From a virus, in IMG/VR virus record IMGVR_UViG_3300021185_000320, positions 1 through 25,061 of that record: DNA of 25,061 nt. The stretch is one strand, 5' to 3'. The position numbers and the translations under genes were made by a program. Below, one piece after another: positions 3,001 through 17,651 of the stretch (within the stretch, counting starts at the first letter, position 1; each line of letters starts with the position of its first letter). Below the pieces are notes generated by a model. That model did no database searches and had not been told where the DNA came from. It saw only the letters and a list, made by a program, of their open reading frames with translations.

Positions 3001-3246
3001 ATTAACATCCATTCTGAATGCTAAACTTGTACTTAAAAATGCCAATAATTCTATAATTGCTATGAACTCTGAACTTTCTATATAGTCATTAAAGTTTTCA
3101 GGAAAATTTGTTCTTACATATTCAACTAAACTAGTACGCATTGTGTCGAAGTCATATGCTTGGAAGTTTACTTCGCTGAAAGCCTTATATGCAACTTTCC
3201 AGTCCTCTGCCGCAAATAAATTATTCTGTCTATCAACTAATGCCAT
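1..3246 (-). CDS. gp6: Baseplate wedge protein, gp6-like (partial, C-terminus beyond window)
   Basis: The frame is open from the ATG at 3246 to the left edge of the window, 1082 codons without a stop (checked triplet by triplet over nearly all of its length), so the C-terminus lies outside. The N-terminus starts MALVDRQNNLFAAEDW and continues into a helical stretch with FNDYIESSEFIAIIELLAFL and ENFLETAERRDSVFKLARMLGY. This is the typical start of gp6-type baseplate wedge proteins of T4-like phages (gp6/J-like family), which dimerise around the hub and trigger sheath contraction. The rest is Asn/Thr-rich and beta-like. T4 gp6 is about 660 residues, so this homologue is much longer. The start ATG overlaps the gp25 stop by one base (TAATG), so translation is probably coupled. 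Gene identity is well supported; the role of the long extension is unknown. Confidence 0.85.
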   Translation of the reverse strand, partial: MALVDRQNNLFAAEDWKVAYKAFSEVNFQAYDFDTMRTSLVEYVRTNFPENFNDYIESSEFIAIIELLAFLSTSLAFRMDVNTRENFLETAERRDSVFKLARMLGYNPKRNIPASGLMKVTAVKTNEPLQDSQGNDISNQNIFWDDANNPDSYEQFITVLNAAMGTTNRFSSPVKSGKVGGINTDQYTISTPITSPIAHSFNLNVNGVARSFEIVNADFFDGEYFYEKQPDPTNNLGFFYRNDGLGLSSNSTGFFLLFKQGQLAFEDFNYETPLQNRLQDIIKNNINETDVYIQEVNTQGIVQNQWTKIPNTVGQTLNYNSKALNTRNLYSIENLNNDGIRIKFPDGNFGNVPSGIFRVWHRVSDGERFTIHPDDTRNTSVNVPYVNADGESFTLTFTFGLENTVSNSLPAESLQNIKNRAPQTFYTQNRMVSAQDYNIFPLSQTSNILKLKATNRTHAGHSRYIDINDPTGTFQSVETYTEDGFLYKDDDPIAKEIIVSDNNTPAEVVDNTIVNFLKEQKLNNVIYDTLREKWSNFIPTKFQTDTLNIRWNPLPVATDSTTGYMTETFSSADTVVMVNNTESTKVFQENTFIKFVDTTNIANYKWVRVTGVQNNGALSSGLSTSIGPWTLSDNVNSNWRADEVIASLRKTFTNSEQTLIEDALKNKSTFGIGFDLTDQSYYVISNANLLKTGNLGIENAKDTTLSGKDNSWIMLFEYTPVDTTSYKYNVSIRGLSYVVQSANDLKFYNVKSVKVTDGTTQAVSDTITFNTLNYKPGVTETFVWSDSNDDGVAEAWQSLDNSAYYDPNGLRTNIALRTRDIKWFDVNVTWQSTFGLLRNDAVTDNHTPANIYALNRFVNAANVSLNPYFDDGNISTNNVTLSNNDGRISKLPNNLNFTFDNTTFGYNILDDNGDITYKQYNHNTGLTEIYHGNSSIYTYGIDGTTGNTSEVGRMFLSNANATAGTGTLTYDELDDNFHLFASDTTGAISRDKILVEYKSAKDRLDTDIVYEISDVFKYSDGYTDNRKVKVAPVDSDGDLVPDKPFQFNEFVSSTDLIIFENYTDFDGYVYDRPVSGVILDWR

Positions 3247-3620
3247 TATTCTGCCTCTGCATTTCTTTTATTAAATTCTAAATATAAAGTATCTGCTTGA
3301 TCTAAATTGTAATATTTTAACACTACTTCAGCTCTTATAGTTTGATCATTTATATATAAAATTGTATTTTCTAAAGTTACTCTAGGATCTAACTCAACAA
3401 TACGTTCTATATCTTCTCTTATCTCTTCTTGTAAAGCCGGCGAGTCTTGTTCCATTAACATATCCCAAATAATACAACCAAAATTAGGTCGCATAATTCG
3501 TTCTCCCTTTTTAGTATAGAAATGATTTAACAAATCTCGTTTGATAAGATCAGTGTCCGTAAGGGTAAAGGGTGCCCTTTTTTTATCTATTGTACTGAAT
3601 CCTTTAAACAATGTCGCCAT
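3246..3620 (-). CDS. gp25: Baseplate wedge protein gp25
   Basis: A 124-residue protein starting MATLFKGFSTIDKK, with TDTDLIKRDLLNHFYTKKGE and RPNFGCIIWDMLME. This is the standard pattern of the gp25/GPW family, the small wedge protein that begins sheath polymerisation. Length matches T4 gp25 (132 residues). The frame can be extended upstream to a TTG at 3635, but family members begin at the ATG used here. No Shine-Dalgarno is visible. A GATAAATA late-promoter box lies at 3633-3626, so close that the transcript would begin almost at the ATG. Downstream, gp6 follows with a TAATG overlap. Upstream on this strand the baseplate operon is interrupted by an opposing two-gene island, which fits gp25 having its own promoter. 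Confidence 0.92.
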   Translation of the reverse strand: MATLFKGFSTIDKKRAPFTLTDTDLIKRDLLNHFYTKKGERIMRPNFGCIIWDMLMEQDSPALQEEIREDIERIVELDPRVTLENTILYINDQTIRAEVVLKYYNLDQADTLYLEFNKRNAEAE

Positions 3621-3625
3621 GTAAG

Positions 3626-3633
3626 TATTTATC
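3626..3633 (-). promoter_or_regulatory. T4-type late promoter box before gp25
   Basis: GATAAATA on the minus strand, one base off the T4 late consensus TATAAATA and followed by CTTAC. It ends 5 bases before the gp25 ATG. A late transcript normally starts about 5-7 bases after the box, so the mRNA would have almost no leader. Confidence 0.6.
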
Positions 3634-3663
3634 AAAATATTTAAATATAGTTTTAATTATTGC

Positions 3664-3691
3664 TTGACATCTTTAATATAGGTGTTATAAT
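3664..3691 (+). promoter_or_regulatory. Sigma70-like promoter for the hydrolase island
   Basis: TTGACA at 3664-3669 and TATAAT at 3686-3691, spacing 16. Both hexamers match the bacterial consensus exactly. The expected start is about 3698, which is the A of the hydrolase ATG, so a leaderless mRNA is predicted. It lies back to back with the late box of gp25. Confidence 0.75.
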
Positions 3692-3697
3692 AATGAT

Positions 3698-4306
3698 ATG
3701 AAAAATGTGATCTATTTACATGGTGCGAATGCAGACCCTGATAACTTTAATTATTATACATTAAAGATGCCAGAACATCCATTCTTTGCACCTGCATACG
3801 ACATGGAGCAAGATCCTTACGATTTAGTTGAGCATGTAAGAATGCAAAAAGAAAGAGAATGGGGTAAGCAAAAGGTAGTAATAGTTGGACATAGTTTTGG
3901 CGGATTACTAGCAAGTTGGTATGCAAGTGTGTATCCTAGAAAAGTAGATCACCTTATTACAATAGCAACTCCTTGGGAAGGTACTCCAGTAGCAAGAATA
4001 TTATCTATGATTTTTAGAAATAGAAAAGTATTTGAAAATACTAAACCAGGTGCAGATGTTTTAAGACTTTTACAAGAAAAGTCTTTTACAGGAAAACACA
4101 CTAATATAGTATGTACAGGAGGTTCTAATCCATTAGCAGGGTTAGGTGGACATGCAAACGATGGAATGATATCGGTTGCTAGTCAATCTACCACACCGCC
4201 TAAATTCAAAAACACTGAAAATGTTTACATAGAAGCAGGCCACAGCGGAGTTTTGTTAAATAATGATGTAACAGATATGTTACAACAAATTATCTTTGAG
4301 GAATAA
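3698..4306 (+). CDS. Alpha/beta hydrolase (lipase/esterase-like)
   Basis: 202 residues with a complete alpha/beta-hydrolase layout. VIYLHGA near the N-terminus supplies the oxyanion-hole HG. The nucleophile elbow GHSFGG has Ser66. The acid is probably Asp155 (HANDGMIS) and the general base His182 (EAGHSGVL). ITIATPWEGTP follows the elbow as in lipase-like hydrolases. There is no signal peptide or membrane segment, so it is cytosolic or carried in the particle; the substrate cannot be told. It stands on the plus strand inside a minus-strand baseplate operon, with its own sigma70-like promoter whose predicted start falls on the ATG. A GGTG lies 13 bases upstream, too far for a good ribosome site. 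It probably forms one unit with the small gene behind it. The context looks like a 'moron' insertion expressed independently of late genes (inference). Confidence 0.85.
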   Translation: MKNVIYLHGANADPDNFNYYTLKMPEHPFFAPAYDMEQDPYDLVEHVRMQKEREWGKQKVVIVGHSFGGLLASWYASVYPRKVDHLITIATPWEGTPVARILSMIFRNRKVFENTKPGADVLRLLQEKSFTGKHTNIVCTGGSNPLAGLGGHANDGMISVASQSTTPPKFKNTENVYIEAGHSGVLLNNDVTDMLQQIIFEE

Positions 4307-4307
4307 T

Positions 4308-4505
4308 ATGTCAGATATAAACACACTAAACGATACCTTAGAAGAGGAATTACGAGTTATGCTCGTTGATAAAAATAATGAGAATCATGGTTTGAGAGCT
4401 CATATAAAATTATTAGAAAAAGCAGTTGCAGATGAACAAGAACAAAAATATAGATTGTTAGTCGAAAATGCTGATCTTAAAAAGGCTTTAAGACAGACTG
4501 CTTAA
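4308..4505 (+). CDS. Small charged coiled-coil protein, unknown function
   Basis: 65 residues, MSDINTLNDTLEEELRVMLV to the end, mostly charged, with leucines in heptad-like spacing in the second half (IKLLEKAV, YRLLVENADLKKAL). This suggests a single helix forming a coiled coil. An upstream ATG at 4296 exists in frame, but the ATG at 4308 has a GAGG six bases before it and starts one base after the hydrolase stop, so I chose it. It probably shares the hydrolase transcript. Its stop overlaps the stop of the opposing lysozyme-like gene within the palindrome TTAA, leaving no room for a terminator. I do not recognise a family. Confidence 0.65.
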   Translation: MSDINTLNDTLEEELRVMLVDKNNENHGLRAHIKLLEKAVADEQEQKYRLLVENADLKKALRQTA

Positions 4506-5092
4506 AAGAAAATTCCTAATTTATTATATGCTCTTCTTTTTGCAAGTTTGAGTACCGCTCTTAATTCTTCAAAACTAAGATTTCTTTGTGCTGGGTATAA
4601 CGTTTCCTCAACATCATCTAATTCTACTTGCCAATTGAGATGTCCTGGTGTAGAAAATAATTCTGCTTCGTATCTTCTTCTAGCAATATAGTCCTGTCTA
4701 ACTTTAGGCCTAGTATGTTTTTTACCCATTCTTCCTACCCTATAGTTCTGCATAAGTTTTGGTACTGCTTCATATTTTTTTTCGTTTAATGCTTTTAAAA
4801 CTTTACTTTTTGCAAAATTATCTATACCTATGTGTTGTATGAAACTTGCCATTGCGCCTAATTGATTATCGTTTAAAGGTACTTGTATAAATCTTTGTGC
4901 ATCTTTAAGTGCCTTTTTAAGATCGGCTTCTAAGGCAAGTCTTTCTGAAGCAGGCCCTAGTCCGTCTATAAATTCTACTAATTTATATCCTGTCTTTTTA
5001 TGTAAATAAATTATACTAGGTCCGTCTATATAGACATCTATCCCTTTTTTTGCTAATCTTTCTACAACATCATCAAATACATTATCCGCCAC
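4502..5092 (-). CDS. Lysozyme-like (GH24 C-lobe-like) baseplate protein, catalytic lobe not evident
   Basis: 196 residues from the GTG at 5092. Residues about 75-145 resemble the C-terminal lobe of phage lysozymes of the GH24 type: LNDNQLGAMASFIQHIG, NFAKSKVLKALNEKKYEA, then a basic stretch and ARRRYEAELF, equivalent to the 'RR..E..LF' ending of that family. The usual N-terminal catalytic part (Glu before a YxDxxGxxTIGxGH-like segment) is not visible; the first 70 residues are unlike it. In T4 the lysozyme domain sits inside gp5; here gp5 has none and this gene follows directly. Start choice: an AGGAGG inside the end of gp5 lies 8 bases before this GTG. The longer ATG start at 5116 has no ribosome site. 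The protein may bind peptidoglycan or have a diverged active site. Confidence 0.7.
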   Translation of the reverse strand: MADNVFDDVVERLAKKGIDVYIDGPSIIYLHKKTGYKLVEFIDGLGPASERLALEADLKKALKDAQRFIQVPLNDNQLGAMASFIQHIGIDNFAKSKVLKALNEKKYEAVPKLMQNYRVGRMGKKHTRPKVRQDYIARRRYEAELFSTPGHLNWQVELDDVEETLYPAQRNLSFEELRAVLKLAKRRAYNKLGIFF

Positions 5093-7181
5093 TGCCACTA
5101 CCTCCTGTTGCTCCATTTACTTTGTCTTTAGCCGCATTTTTAAAGTCTTCTACTTTTCCGCCTGTTGCATCGTTAATGGCACCACTTATATCACCTTTCA
5201 TACCTTTAACAACTGCATCTTGTAAATCAACTGGCAGTCCCAATCCGTCTAAAGAAAACTGATTAAGTCTTGCTTCTAGGTCAGTTAGTATTTTAGACTG
5301 TCCTATAATTTTCTGTTGTATAGTTGTTACCGTTGGAATTCTAAACGGCGGGATAGCAATTCCTAATTTATCTGCAATTCCCATTAGACCCTGTATACTA
5401 GCAAAGTTTAAATCTTGAAGGGCATAAAAATCACTTAGTACTGCGTTATAATCTTCATAGATTGATTTGACACCAGATGTAGCCTCATCAAAATCGTCTT
5501 TTAAATCACCAAATTTATCTTTTGCATCTGAAAATCCTTTACCTATCTTTGTACCTTCAGGCGTATCAGCATCTGCTGGTGTTTCATCTGTAGGATCTAT
5601 TTGATTTTCCAACGTTTCTGATTCTGCAGAAATATCTTCTTCCATGCTTTCTTTATCATCTGAACTAGGATCGTATTGCCCGTGTCCTATGTAAGGTTCT
5701 GCTGTAACTAGTTTACCTACAATAGTATTAATACTAGGGCCTTTTTCAGGTCTTTGTCCACCGTTTTGTATAGGATTACCTTCCGACTCTCTATCGTATT
5801 CAGGTTGAGATGAGGATTGATCTGGTTTTTCTGCACCGCCTAATTGTGGCGCCGGAATAGCAGGAATAAGATCTGGTGTTGGTGGTACTCCAGGATTGTT
5901 TAATCCTATTGTAGCACCAAATAAATTTAAAACACCACCTGCAGAAACTGTTGCAACTCCTCCTGATAATACATCTAATTTACCTGTTGCTTGAACAGTT
6001 GTATAACCCTGTGACTGTACTGCTACACCCAATGTACTTGTTGCTGTTAATCTTCCTGCAGAACTTAATTGTAGTTCACCTGCGTTTGCTGTAATCTGAG
6101 AGTTCAAGTTTGCATGTATAGAAACATCTTCCGTTCCATGTATTCTTACAGAACCGCCTACACCCAATGGTGGTATTCCTAATGCACCTAATTTACTTGC
6201 AATGCCTTTATATCCGCCGGCATCATTATCACCTGCGGCTTTTATATTTACATCATTACCTGCTTCAATATTAACATTTTTATCTGCTCTTAAGTTAAAG
6301 TCTCCTTTACTTCTCAAACTCATTGAGCCTTCGCCAAAAACATTTATGTTACCATTTTTATCTAATTCAAACCATGCTGTACCGTTTTTATTAATAACAT
6401 AAATCGAACCTGTTGAGTCGTCTAGTAAAATTTGATTTCCGCCACCTGTTCTTAATCTTATATTAGAATTACTTTCACTGTCATCCATAATAAATTGATG
6501 ACCGGGTCCTAAAGGTTTACCGTCAGGGTCTCTAGGTCCTTTTGTTAAAATACCTAAAACTTGACTTGGGGATTCTCTTCTAGCACTACTAGATGTCGCA
6601 CCTCTTATTGGGTCGTTAATAAGACCTTGCTTTGTTATTGTTTCTGCAAAGTCATGAAATATAGGTCTTAGTTTACCATTATGTTTATCGTCTGGATCGA
6701 AATTATTTTTTTCTACTGTAGGTGTATTAAATGGTCCACCTTGAAAACTTGGGCCACCAGGGATACCCGGTATCATCTGGTTATATGGCGTAGGCATTGT
6801 GTGGCCTATTATAAAAGGATTTGATAAAAGGCCGTCACCAAATGCAACTAAAACAACATTGCCTACATCAGGGGGTGGTGTCCAAAAACCATATGAACGC
6901 CTAGATTTTTCTTCCTGTGTTACATCATCTGATTTTACAAAAGATGTGCTAGAACCTCCATAAAAGGGAGACGTATACATACACTCAAATAAAGTTCTTT
7001 CACTAGGGTCTCTATTTAATTCTGCAATGTAAACCGATACTTTACCTGTTCTTGTAGCATCTGTATTAAAGTCTACTATACCTATATAGATACCAAAGTA
7101 TTTTTTACTAGTATTCTTTTTATCAATTGGATTACCATGAGTTACTGCGGAATCACTGCTTACATAAAAATTCTTAGGCAT
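5082..7181 (-). CDS. gp5: Baseplate hub spike protein, gp5-like (no internal lysozyme)
   Basis: 699 residues beginning MPKNFYVSSDS. This ATG follows GGAGGAGG closely and overlaps the previous stop as TAATG, so the in-frame ATG 27 bases upstream is rejected. Residues about 28-130 form the gp5/VgrG OB fold (YFGIYIGIVDF, GKVSVYIAELN, FWTPPPDVGNVVLVAF, NPFIIGHT). A linker follows. From about 230 to 440 come repeated short beta strands (IRLRTGGGNQILLDD, NINVFGEGSMSLRSK, FNLRADKNVNIEAGNDVNIK), the triple-stranded beta-helix needle. A Pro/Gln-rich linker and a helical tail ending GGSGSGG close the protein. The T4 lysozyme domain between OB fold and needle is absent. The protein should trimerise to form the membrane-puncturing spike under the hub. 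Confidence 0.85.
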   Translation of the reverse strand: MPKNFYVSSDSAVTHGNPIDKKNTSKKYFGIYIGIVDFNTDATRTGKVSVYIAELNRDPSERTLFECMYTSPFYGGSSTSFVKSDDVTQEEKSRRSYGFWTPPPDVGNVVLVAFGDGLLSNPFIIGHTMPTPYNQMIPGIPGGPSFQGGPFNTPTVEKNNFDPDDKHNGKLRPIFHDFAETITKQGLINDPIRGATSSSARRESPSQVLGILTKGPRDPDGKPLGPGHQFIMDDSESNSNIRLRTGGGNQILLDDSTGSIYVINKNGTAWFELDKNGNINVFGEGSMSLRSKGDFNLRADKNVNIEAGNDVNIKAAGDNDAGGYKGIASKLGALGIPPLGVGGSVRIHGTEDVSIHANLNSQITANAGELQLSSAGRLTATSTLGVAVQSQGYTTVQATGKLDVLSGGVATVSAGGVLNLFGATIGLNNPGVPPTPDLIPAIPAPQLGGAEKPDQSSSQPEYDRESEGNPIQNGGQRPEKGPSINTIVGKLVTAEPYIGHGQYDPSSDDKESMEEDISAESETLENQIDPTDETPADADTPEGTKIGKGFSDAKDKFGDLKDDFDEATSGVKSIYEDYNAVLSDFYALQDLNFASIQGLMGIADKLGIAIPPFRIPTVTTIQQKIIGQSKILTDLEARLNQFSLDGLGLPVDLQDAVVKGMKGDISGAINDATGGKVEDFKNAAKDKVNGATGGSGSGG

Positions 7182-11082: not shown

Positions 11083-11090
11083 TATTTATC
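11083..11090 (-). promoter_or_regulatory. T4-type late promoter box for the baseplate operon
   Basis: GATAAATA on the minus strand, 21 bases ahead of the tube-cap start codon, with an AAGGAG ribosome site between. It stands back to back with the late box of gp55. Confidence 0.7.
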
Positions 11091-11125
11091 GTATTCATTA
11101 AAACTAGTTTTAAATTGCCAGTTCT

Positions 11126-11137: not shown

Positions 11138-11165
11138 TTGACAATGCACAAGAACTGTGTATAAT
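11138..11165 (+). promoter_or_regulatory. Sigma70-like promoter for gp55-gp47-gp46
   Basis: TTGACA at 11138-11143 and TATAAT at 11160-11165, spacing 16, both perfect hexamers. This would give early or middle expression by host polymerase before any gp55 exists. Confidence 0.75.
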
Positions 11166-11206: not shown

Positions 11207-12067
11207 ATGGCACAGCCAAAGAAGGTTAATTACCTTAACAACAAAGACATTCTAAAAGAAATACACAAAAGTAAGATGACTTACTGCTATGTAGCAGACG
11301 ACAAATATGCAAATTTTGATGTAATTTTAGAAGACGTTAAAAAAATCAACAGAAACAGTATAAAGGTTGCTAGAGAAAACAGAGCATCACAAATACAATC
11401 AGCAGGATATCAAGCCGCAATGGCATTACATGATCCTAAAGATTATAAAAATAAACCCAAGCAAAAAGAATTTGCAATAGATCCTAAAAGCATAGACCAA
11501 GAAGATTTAGTTTTTAGAGTTATGGATATGGAACATATTCCATTAGAGCCAGGTAGAAAAAAGAATCCTAGGAACGAAGCAGAAACAAGAGCAAAAGTAA
11601 ACTTTCCTCCCTTCAAACATTATGCTTACATAGGCGGTGAAATAAAAGAAGTTGCAAGAAGCCATTGGCAGGGCAGTTTAAGTAACGGTGAGTTTTGTGT
11701 AGATCATGGAAGAATTACAAACAAGTTAGGAACTATGTTCTTAAAACTAGTTGAAAGATATTCACACAGATCAAACTGGAGAGGTTACACTTACGTAGAT
11801 GAAATGCGTGGTCAAGCATTAGTGCAATTATCTCAAATAGGATTACAATTTAATGAAGCAAAATCAGATAATCCATTTGCATATTATACTGCCGCAGTTA
11901 ATAATAGTTTTACAAGAATTTTAAATTTAGAGAAAAGAAATCAGATGATTAGAGATGATATCTTAATCGACAGTGGACATTTACCAAGTTATGGTAGACA
12001 AATCCAACATGAAGAAGAAATGCGTGTACTTAGAGAGGCCGCACAATCTGAAAATTCACAAGACTAA
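11207..12067 (+). CDS. gp55: Late-transcription sigma factor gp55
   Basis: 286 residues. The segment at about 186-245 (SHRSNWRGYTYVDEMRGQAL, DNPFAYYTAAVNNSFTRILN, LEKR) is the sigma region-2-like core of T4 gp55, which lets host RNA polymerase recognise TATAAATA late promoters together with the sliding clamp. YLNNKDILKEIHKSK at residues 9-23 resembles the start of marine gp55 proteins (V/LNNKD). Between these lies roughly 150 residues of Lys-rich sequence not expected from T4 gp55 (185 residues in total), so the N-terminal half is an expansion. Start: ATG at 11207 with GAGGAG 8 bases before; another ATG at 11203 is out of frame. gp47 follows after 3 bases. The recurrence of late boxes in this window supports the assignment. 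Confidence 0.87.
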   Translation: MAQPKKVNYLNNKDILKEIHKSKMTYCYVADDKYANFDVILEDVKKINRNSIKVARENRASQIQSAGYQAAMALHDPKDYKNKPKQKEFAIDPKSIDQEDLVFRVMDMEHIPLEPGRKKNPRNEAETRAKVNFPPFKHYAYIGGEIKEVARSHWQGSLSNGEFCVDHGRITNKLGTMFLKLVERYSHRSNWRGYTYVDEMRGQALVQLSQIGLQFNEAKSDNPFAYYTAAVNNSFTRILNLEKRNQMIRDDILIDSGHLPSYGRQIQHEEEMRVLREAAQSENSQD

Positions 12068-16120: not shown

Positions 16121-16135
16121 TTATCAGTCTGATAA
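16106..16135. repeat. Direct and inverted repeat at the end of the GIY-YIG gene
   Basis: GTTATCAG occurs at 16106-16113 and again at 16120-16127. The second copy forms, with CTGATAA at 16129-16135, a near-perfect palindrome TTATCAG-T-CTGATAA that spans the stop codon of the GIY-YIG gene. There is no T run, so it is unlikely to be a terminator; it could be a protein-binding site or RNA 3' end stem. Confidence 0.4.
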
Positions 16136-16540
16136 TGCTTCTTTCAGGATTTTTGAACCACCTACTCTAACGTTAATAATTCCGTTATAATAGTCGTCCG
16201 TAAGTAGTACCTCTCGATCGAATTGTTCCTTGGCTTCTAAGTAACTTGCTATGCCTCTACTTGTACAAAAGTATAAAATCTCTCTTGTGAATTTATCTTC
16301 CCCAAGATCTACTACGTCTGCTTTTAAATGATCGTTGCTACCCCAATAAGTACGCCAGTCACTTTCTTTAGTACCACGTCTTTTATTCTTTTTGCCTTTT
16401 AAGGGAGGTTTGGTTGTTTTAAATTTAGCAAGTTTCTTACCCACATACTTCATACCATTTTCATTATTGGTAATCAGATATACAAATGCTTCGCAGTCTT
16501 CTGGTAATTCAGTAACTTCTTTATTTTTATATTGCCACAT
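16124..16540 (-). CDS. GIY-YIG family endonuclease
   Basis: 138 residues. The GIY-YIG pair appears as FVYLIT (Tyr21) and KYVGKK (Tyr32-Val-Gly) with about ten residues between. A basic loop follows (KGKKNKRRGTKESDWRTYWG). KFTREIL carries the probable catalytic Arg86, SYLEAKEQF the metal-binding Glu102, and YYNGIINVR the Asn119, in the order known for this nuclease fold. It lacks an obvious C-terminal DNA-binding module, so it is a minimal nuclease of the type scattered through T4-like phages (homing or Seg-like, or host DNA degradation). Its ATG overlaps the stop of the gp26 frameshift extension (TAATG), so its translation may depend on ribosomes that have read that -1 frame. The GC-rich gene-free region lies just behind it. 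Confidence 0.75.
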   Translation of the reverse strand: MWQYKNKEVTELPEDCEAFVYLITNNENGMKYVGKKLAKFKTTKPPLKGKKNKRRGTKESDWRTYWGSNDHLKADVVDLGEDKFTREILYFCTSRGIASYLEAKEQFDREVLLTDDYYNGIINVRVGGSKILKEALSD

Positions 16541-17618: not shown

Positions 17619-17643
17619 AATTAAAACTCCTGTTAATTCTTTT

Positions 17644-17651
17644 GATAAATA
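17644..17651 (+). promoter_or_regulatory. T4-type late promoter box for the tape measure gene
   Basis: GATAAATA followed by CTACT, 66 bases ahead of the tape measure ATG. It points toward the gp26 late box 24 bases away on the other strand. Confidence 0.65.

Follow-up and report, generated by a model that had tools for sequence, protein, structure and literature searches.

Gene layout at the gp25 slot

The window, by which we mean the whole stretch of DNA analyzed, is a 25,061-base virus record. It carries a leftward baseplate cluster of the T4 type, with genes for gp6, gp25, a lysozyme, a gp5-like protein, a hub protein, a gp53-like protein and a virion protein, and a rightward gp55-gp47-gp46 set that starts at position 11207. 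The gp55 homologue has 286 aa (PHROG match 1.5e–95). By gp55, the nearest named relatives of the window are jumbo T4-type phages, PA5oct-like ones at about 46% identity, followed by Phosso and GAP32-type phages. A SegE-type GIY-YIG endonuclease-like gene is found at 16124-16540 on the minus strand (PF19835, 4.3e–32).

A first-pass annotation, made from the sequence, had reported two plus-strand genes inside the leftward baseplate operon, between gp25 and the lysozyme gene. The open reading frames and the Pfam matches of the flanking genes confirm this layout (Table 1). The first gene, HYD, encodes an alpha/beta hydrolase; the second, orfX, is convergent with the lysozyme gene and overlaps it by 4 bp. 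The start codon of gp25 is the ATG at 3620-3618, a small correction to the earlier annotation. The orfX product is predicted to be charged and probably forms a coiled coil. Profile searches with orfX gave no significant match to a characterized family, and the gene is found also in slots that lack HYD.

Table 1. Features of the gp25 slot and its control elements in the window
Feature	Coordinates	Strand	Evidence and remarks
gp25 baseplate wedge gene	3246..3620	-	Pfam GPW_gp25 1e–10, PHROG baseplate wedge; left border of slot
Divergent late-type promoter of gp25, TTAAAAC-N16-GATAAATA	3626..3656	-	exact match
Early sigma70-type promoter TTGACA-16-TATAAT	3664..3691	+	exact match; TGn extended –10
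HYD, 202-aa alpha/beta hydrolase	3698..4306	+	Pfam, invariant triad, model, Foldseek; predicted without signal peptide
orfX, 65-aa ORF	4308..4505 (start ATG 4308)	+	follows HYD in 67/67 HYD slots surveyed
Phage-lysozyme-like gene	4502..5116	-	Pfam Phage_lysozyme 4.7e–12; right border of slot
Second perfect early-type promoter	11138..11165	+	exact match; upstream of gp55-gp47-gp46

HYD is a conserved predicted serine hydrolase

HYD matches the Pfam families Abhydrolase_1 (6.4e–11) and PGAP1 (5.9e–9), both above curated cut-offs. We compared it with 28 distinct homologues from metagenomic viral contigs, with identity down to 62%. The triad S66, D155 and H182, described as intact in the first-pass annotation, is invariant in all 28, and the loss of catalytic residues that had been named as evidence against the proposal was seen in none. 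Altogether 70 residues are invariant across the homologues, including H8-G9-A10-N11-A12 (the HGANA oxyanion segment), S66 in GHSFGG, D155 in NDG and H182 in AGHS. The AlphaFold2 model of HYD is an alpha/beta hydrolase (pLDDT 80.1, pTM 0.83), its weak part being the loop 143-150 just before D155. A structure-based search for the closest esterase had also been proposed; Foldseek with the model returned more than 1000 matches at E <= 0.001, with Candida antarctica lipase B on top (TMq 0.64), while a profile search of the PDB placed bacterial lipases on top, aligned over residues 54-105. We infer that HYD is a catalytically competent serine hydrolase, which would act on an ester or acyl substrate. 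The alpha/beta-hydrolase fold has non-catalytic members, and HYD could be one of them, a binding or regulatory protein whose triad is unused, but its Ser, Asp and His residues and the HGANA segment do not vary even among the most distant homologues, and we regard this as the least probable of the readings weighed here.

Assignment of HYD to a known enzyme subfamily (BioH, MetX, YqiA, lipases and others) was rejected on missed curated cut-offs: no NCBIfam enzyme cut-off was reached, and all scores lay far below (for example, 21.7 versus 206.95 bits for BioH). PHROGs, tried as a route to a specific subfamily, gave only weak generic esterase/lipase matches. The enzyme had been said to lie outside the T4 core genes, which is supported by its absence from named phages (tblastn of 50,697 phage records, nothing at 1e–3). 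A genome scan with alignment A1 found no close cellular relative, the best match being 45% over 47 aa; matches were mostly short or weak and located around the nucleophile elbow, and therefore no donor of HYD can be named. A literature search found nothing on a HYD-type enzyme or on the gp25 port.

HYD opens straight with its first beta strand, which makes a signal peptide improbable and residence in the cytoplasm likely. This bears on the targets proposed earlier, namely host lipids, signaling esters or the envelope: host lipids or esters are possible substrates, but a protein with no room for a signal peptide is unlikely to attack the envelope from outside.

In 19 loci whose gp6 is at least 60% identical to that of the window, HYD is the most conserved protein of the neighborhood, with a mean identity of 89.9%, versus 84.5% for gp6, 80.2% for vsp309, 80.0% for gp25, 74.6% for gp53, 74.1% for orfX, 69.4% for gp5, 68.2% for the lysozyme and 48.6% for the hub protein. 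Its median dN/dS is also the lowest of the five genes tested (HYD 0.046, gp25 0.069, gp53 0.133, lysozyme 0.147, orfX 0.154). By these estimates purifying selection acts more strongly on HYD than on the tested neighbors, and the combination of high identity and low dN/dS points to a retained, working gene.

Divergent early-type and late-type promoters meet at the slot

The perfect TTGACA-16-TATAAT promoter reported ahead of the hydrolase is indeed exact. Exact 12/12 matches to this pattern occur twice in the window (Table 1) versus 0.02 expected in shuffles. A looser promoter scan of the window showed no excess (56 found versus 54.9 expected), and therefore the exactness and the conservation of the HYD promoter carry the weight. 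TTGAC is retained in all 44 distinct upstream regions in which HYD is the first gene. In a 250,519-bp relative (G001; L324-L336), all 21 exact TTGAC-N16..18-TATAAT sites lie on HYD's strand and none lies on the opposite one, and reversed-pattern controls gave 1. One of the 21 lies upstream of HYD itself. Other genes that follow these promoters encode, as named from sequence, a B-family polymerase (893 aa; gp43), a clamp-like protein (gp45), ribonucleotide reductase, a ferredoxin and gp55, and, by Pfam, ClpP, a DnaE fragment, DnaJ, a Toprim protein and a gp32-like protein. Given this 21:0 strand bias, the HYD promoter belongs to the early set of the phage and is not private to HYD. The earlier proposal of a non-late, sigma70-type promoter in an orientation opposite to the baseplate genes is borne out, and the promoter type suggests that HYD is expressed early. 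In G001, an exact early-type promoter also lies upstream of a phage-encoded, outer-membrane receptor-like protein of 676 aa (reverse complement 195808-197838) with a TonB-dependent-receptor plug domain (PF07715, 1.2e–9).

The –10 element ends at 3691, and the predicted +1 at 3698 is the A of the HYD ATG, so that no 5' UTR is expected. Of the 44 distinct HYD-first regions, 43 have a gap of 6 nt between the –10 element and the ATG and one has 7 nt; in a second automated pass, which took the best-scoring promoter anywhere in the region, the gap was 6 nt in 47/59. In G001, an ATG stands exactly 6 nt after 5 of the 21 exact early promoters versus about 0.7 expected per offset. Leaders in HYD-less cassette slots are mostly about 25-80 nt long. 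Promoter geometry thus predicts a leaderless HYD mRNA; by the same arithmetic (GATAAATA, 5 nt, ATG) the gp25 mRNA would likewise be leaderless, and so, by prediction, are several early genes of the HYD phage lineage.

By contrast, GATAAATA sites stand upstream of gp25 (3633-3626) and of the baseplate operon (11090-11083), with three more near structural genes. The late TATTTATC motif (GATAAATA) faces gp25 in 92/93 cassette slots and in 7/31 slots that are empty or hold other genes; through rounding of the categories, two of the 93 entries lack one class. GTTTTAA lies 16 nt away (giving TTAAAAC-N16-GATAAATA for gp25) in most cassette slots and in 0/31 of the others, and the 16-nt spacing holds in nearly all slots where both parts of the motif were found. 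In the window, the two-part motif is exact at three divergent promoter regions, the one at gp25 and those at 11083-11113 (minus strand) and 17621-17651 (plus strand); 0.41 copies are expected at up to 2 mismatches. It also stands at equivalent places in relatives, and no exact copy was found at other spacers or in controls. A role for the two-part motif as a general late promoter was rejected: exact copies are few and mainly at divergent junctions, and in G001, at 2 mismatches, spacer 16 does no better than other spacers. The gp55 model, checked for a TTAAAAC-binding domain, was too poor to show one (pLDDT 60.8, pTM 0.40). Judged from its motifs, the site upstream of gp25 is a conserved divergent early/late switch, in which a late-type promoter faces gp25 and a sigma70 promoter faces the cargo.

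The slot holds different cargo in related phages

We surveyed 124 distinct slots upstream of gp25. HYD+orfX is present in 59, U84+HYD+orfX in 8, U84+orfX in 10, orfX alone in 4, U84 without HYD and orfX in 12, part of which hold additional genes, and none of the three in 31. HYD served as query in two of the searches, and the counts therefore do not give population frequencies. In PA5oct the same slot contains a gene of the U84 family and in Phosso other plus-strand genes, and the slot of GAP32 is devoid of genes, with gp25 abutting the lysozyme gene. In one locus (L101), which is among the 12 with U84 but neither HYD nor orfX, a SprT-like metalloprotease-like gene stands in place of HYD behind the same divergent control region (PF10263 0.0028, below cut-off; PHROG 6.8e–21, no assigned function).

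A comparison of synteny in relatives without the island had been suggested, with its presence in all of them named as evidence against the proposal. Several relatives lack HYD at the same place (L091-L099, L273-L288 and others). A search for HYD elsewhere in HYD-less genomes, covering ten contigs of 41-92 kb (all fragments) and the complete records of PA5oct, GAP32 and Phosso, found no copy. On the gp25+gp6 tree, 5 changes are needed for HYD, 2 for U84 and 6 for orfX, gains and losses not being distinguishable in these counts.

The first-pass annotation had called the island moron-like. Morons are described as insertions that deviate in GC and lie between a promoter and a terminator, a definition that reportedly leaves out most novel ORFs of T4-like phages (PMC1524935). 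A recent, self-contained and dispensable insertion would agree with the own promoter of HYD, its reversed orientation and its absence from some close relatives at the same site. An own terminator and a deviating GC are missing: no plus-strand terminator-like site was found after orfX, the GC of HYD is 0.351 and that of orfX 0.308 (other genes, mean 0.344, sd 0.025), and GC3 is also like that of the phage. Moreover, the promoter is common to a genome-wide, one-directional set and is retained in HYD-less relatives, HYD is more conserved than any protein around it, and its presence is clustered on the phage tree (about 5 changes). The view of HYD as a private insertion thus did not hold, the recent-moron reading is largely contradicted already, and we consider a true moron highly improbable. 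Rather than a strict moron, the HYD island is an early-type gene that occupies a conserved port for early genes.

The same observations bear on two other roles for HYD. If HYD were a lipase or esterase that works late on the envelope, in aid of lysis or of the baseplate lysozyme, its place beside a phage-lysozyme gene would suit it, as would the bacterial lipases that are its nearest PDB sequence matches; but it lies on the opposite strand behind an early-type promoter, has no room for a signal peptide, and is replaced by other cargo at the same site in relatives, which makes such a role very unlikely. Alternatively, HYD might be an anti-defence or detoxifying enzyme that destroys a host signal or inhibitor early, such as an alarm molecule modified by acylation or esterification. 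An early-type promoter and exchange of cargo among relatives fit a host-interaction gene, but PADLOC gave weak matches (best 0.029) and no link to a known defence or anti-defence family, and arms-race genes tend to diverge, whereas HYD is unusually conserved by its dN/dS. We judge this unlikely, and yet it is the best rival explanation of HYD's purpose.

A proposed early function for HYD

Overall, we suggest that HYD-orfX is probably early-gene cargo in an ancient, conserved baseplate-cluster port of an uncultured group of PA5oct-related jumbo T4-type phages, and that HYD probably works early in the cytoplasm as an active hydrolase. The suggestion is built on gene order, conservation of the promoter and its spacing, the triad, the predicted fold, purifying selection and cargo variation. 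At the port, leftward transcription into gp25 would start from a late-type promoter, and rightward transcription of the cargo from a strong early promoter of the host sigma70 type. The host RNA polymerase would transcribe HYD into a leaderless mRNA shortly after the DNA has entered the cell. The protein would be a small, catalytically competent serine hydrolase of the carboxylesterase, thioesterase or lysolipase type; working in the cytoplasm, it may cut an ester or acyl compound of the host and so ready the cell for replication of the phage. Counting against this reading, HYD is dispensable in several related lineages, its family is generic, and the model is weak ahead of D155. A bolder version, in which the gp25 port is dedicated and long-lived, has a two-part late side and exchanges takeover genes, translation in HYD phages is leaderless and tied firmly to the promoter, and HYD represents a new type of early enzyme that cuts a host acyl or ester metabolite, is possible but doubtful.

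Little is known of what the early genes of jumbo phages do. HYD stands for an early-type enzyme family that is strongly conserved, retains its triad and can be readily assayed, and the fixed port occurs in nature both without HYD and with other cargo, so that these states can be compared. The constant 6-nt spacing from promoter to start makes leaderless early translation in the HYD phage lineage directly testable. Our results also suggest that other early takeover genes might be found by promoter and port.

Comparison with known systems

With known alpha/beta hydrolases (Abhydrolase_1, PGAP1, Burkholderia/Chromobacterium-type lipases, Candida antarctica lipase B) HYD shares the triad, the predicted fold, the GHSxGG nucleophile elbow followed by TPxxGTPVA, and the NDGM acid motif. 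Unlike them, it has 202 aa only, a small cap and no secretion signal, and its similarity to solved structures lies mainly at residues ~54-105.

T4 early promoters are near-consensus sigma70 promoters, and the promoters described here have the same near-consensus –35/TGn/–10 elements and are likewise one-directional and placed before replication and takeover genes (PMC2988021). Unlike T4 early genes, the HYD cassette sits inside a late baseplate cluster on the opposite strand; several early genes here are predicted to be leaderless, and HYD drew no match among named phages. In T4, the consensus of late promoters reads TATAAATA and spans –13 to –6 (PMC1524935). The GATAAATA of the window resembles TATAAATA and stands just upstream of gp25 and of the baseplate operon, and a gp55 homologue is present. 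T4 late promoters are described as the short –10 motif alone, whereas at three places in the window TTAAAAC lies exactly 16 nt upstream.

Like phage morons, the HYD cassette is an addition under a promoter of its own, is set among genes that serve other functions, and is missing in some relatives. Unlike them, it shows neither a detectable terminator nor a deviating GC, draws its promoter from the early set, and contains an old, strongly conserved gene. A parallel in layout is the slot of PA5oct: although this phage lacks HYD anywhere, its gp25 and baseplate lysozyme genes likewise enclose two genes on the plus strand, one of which belongs to the U84 family that adjoins HYD in relatives.
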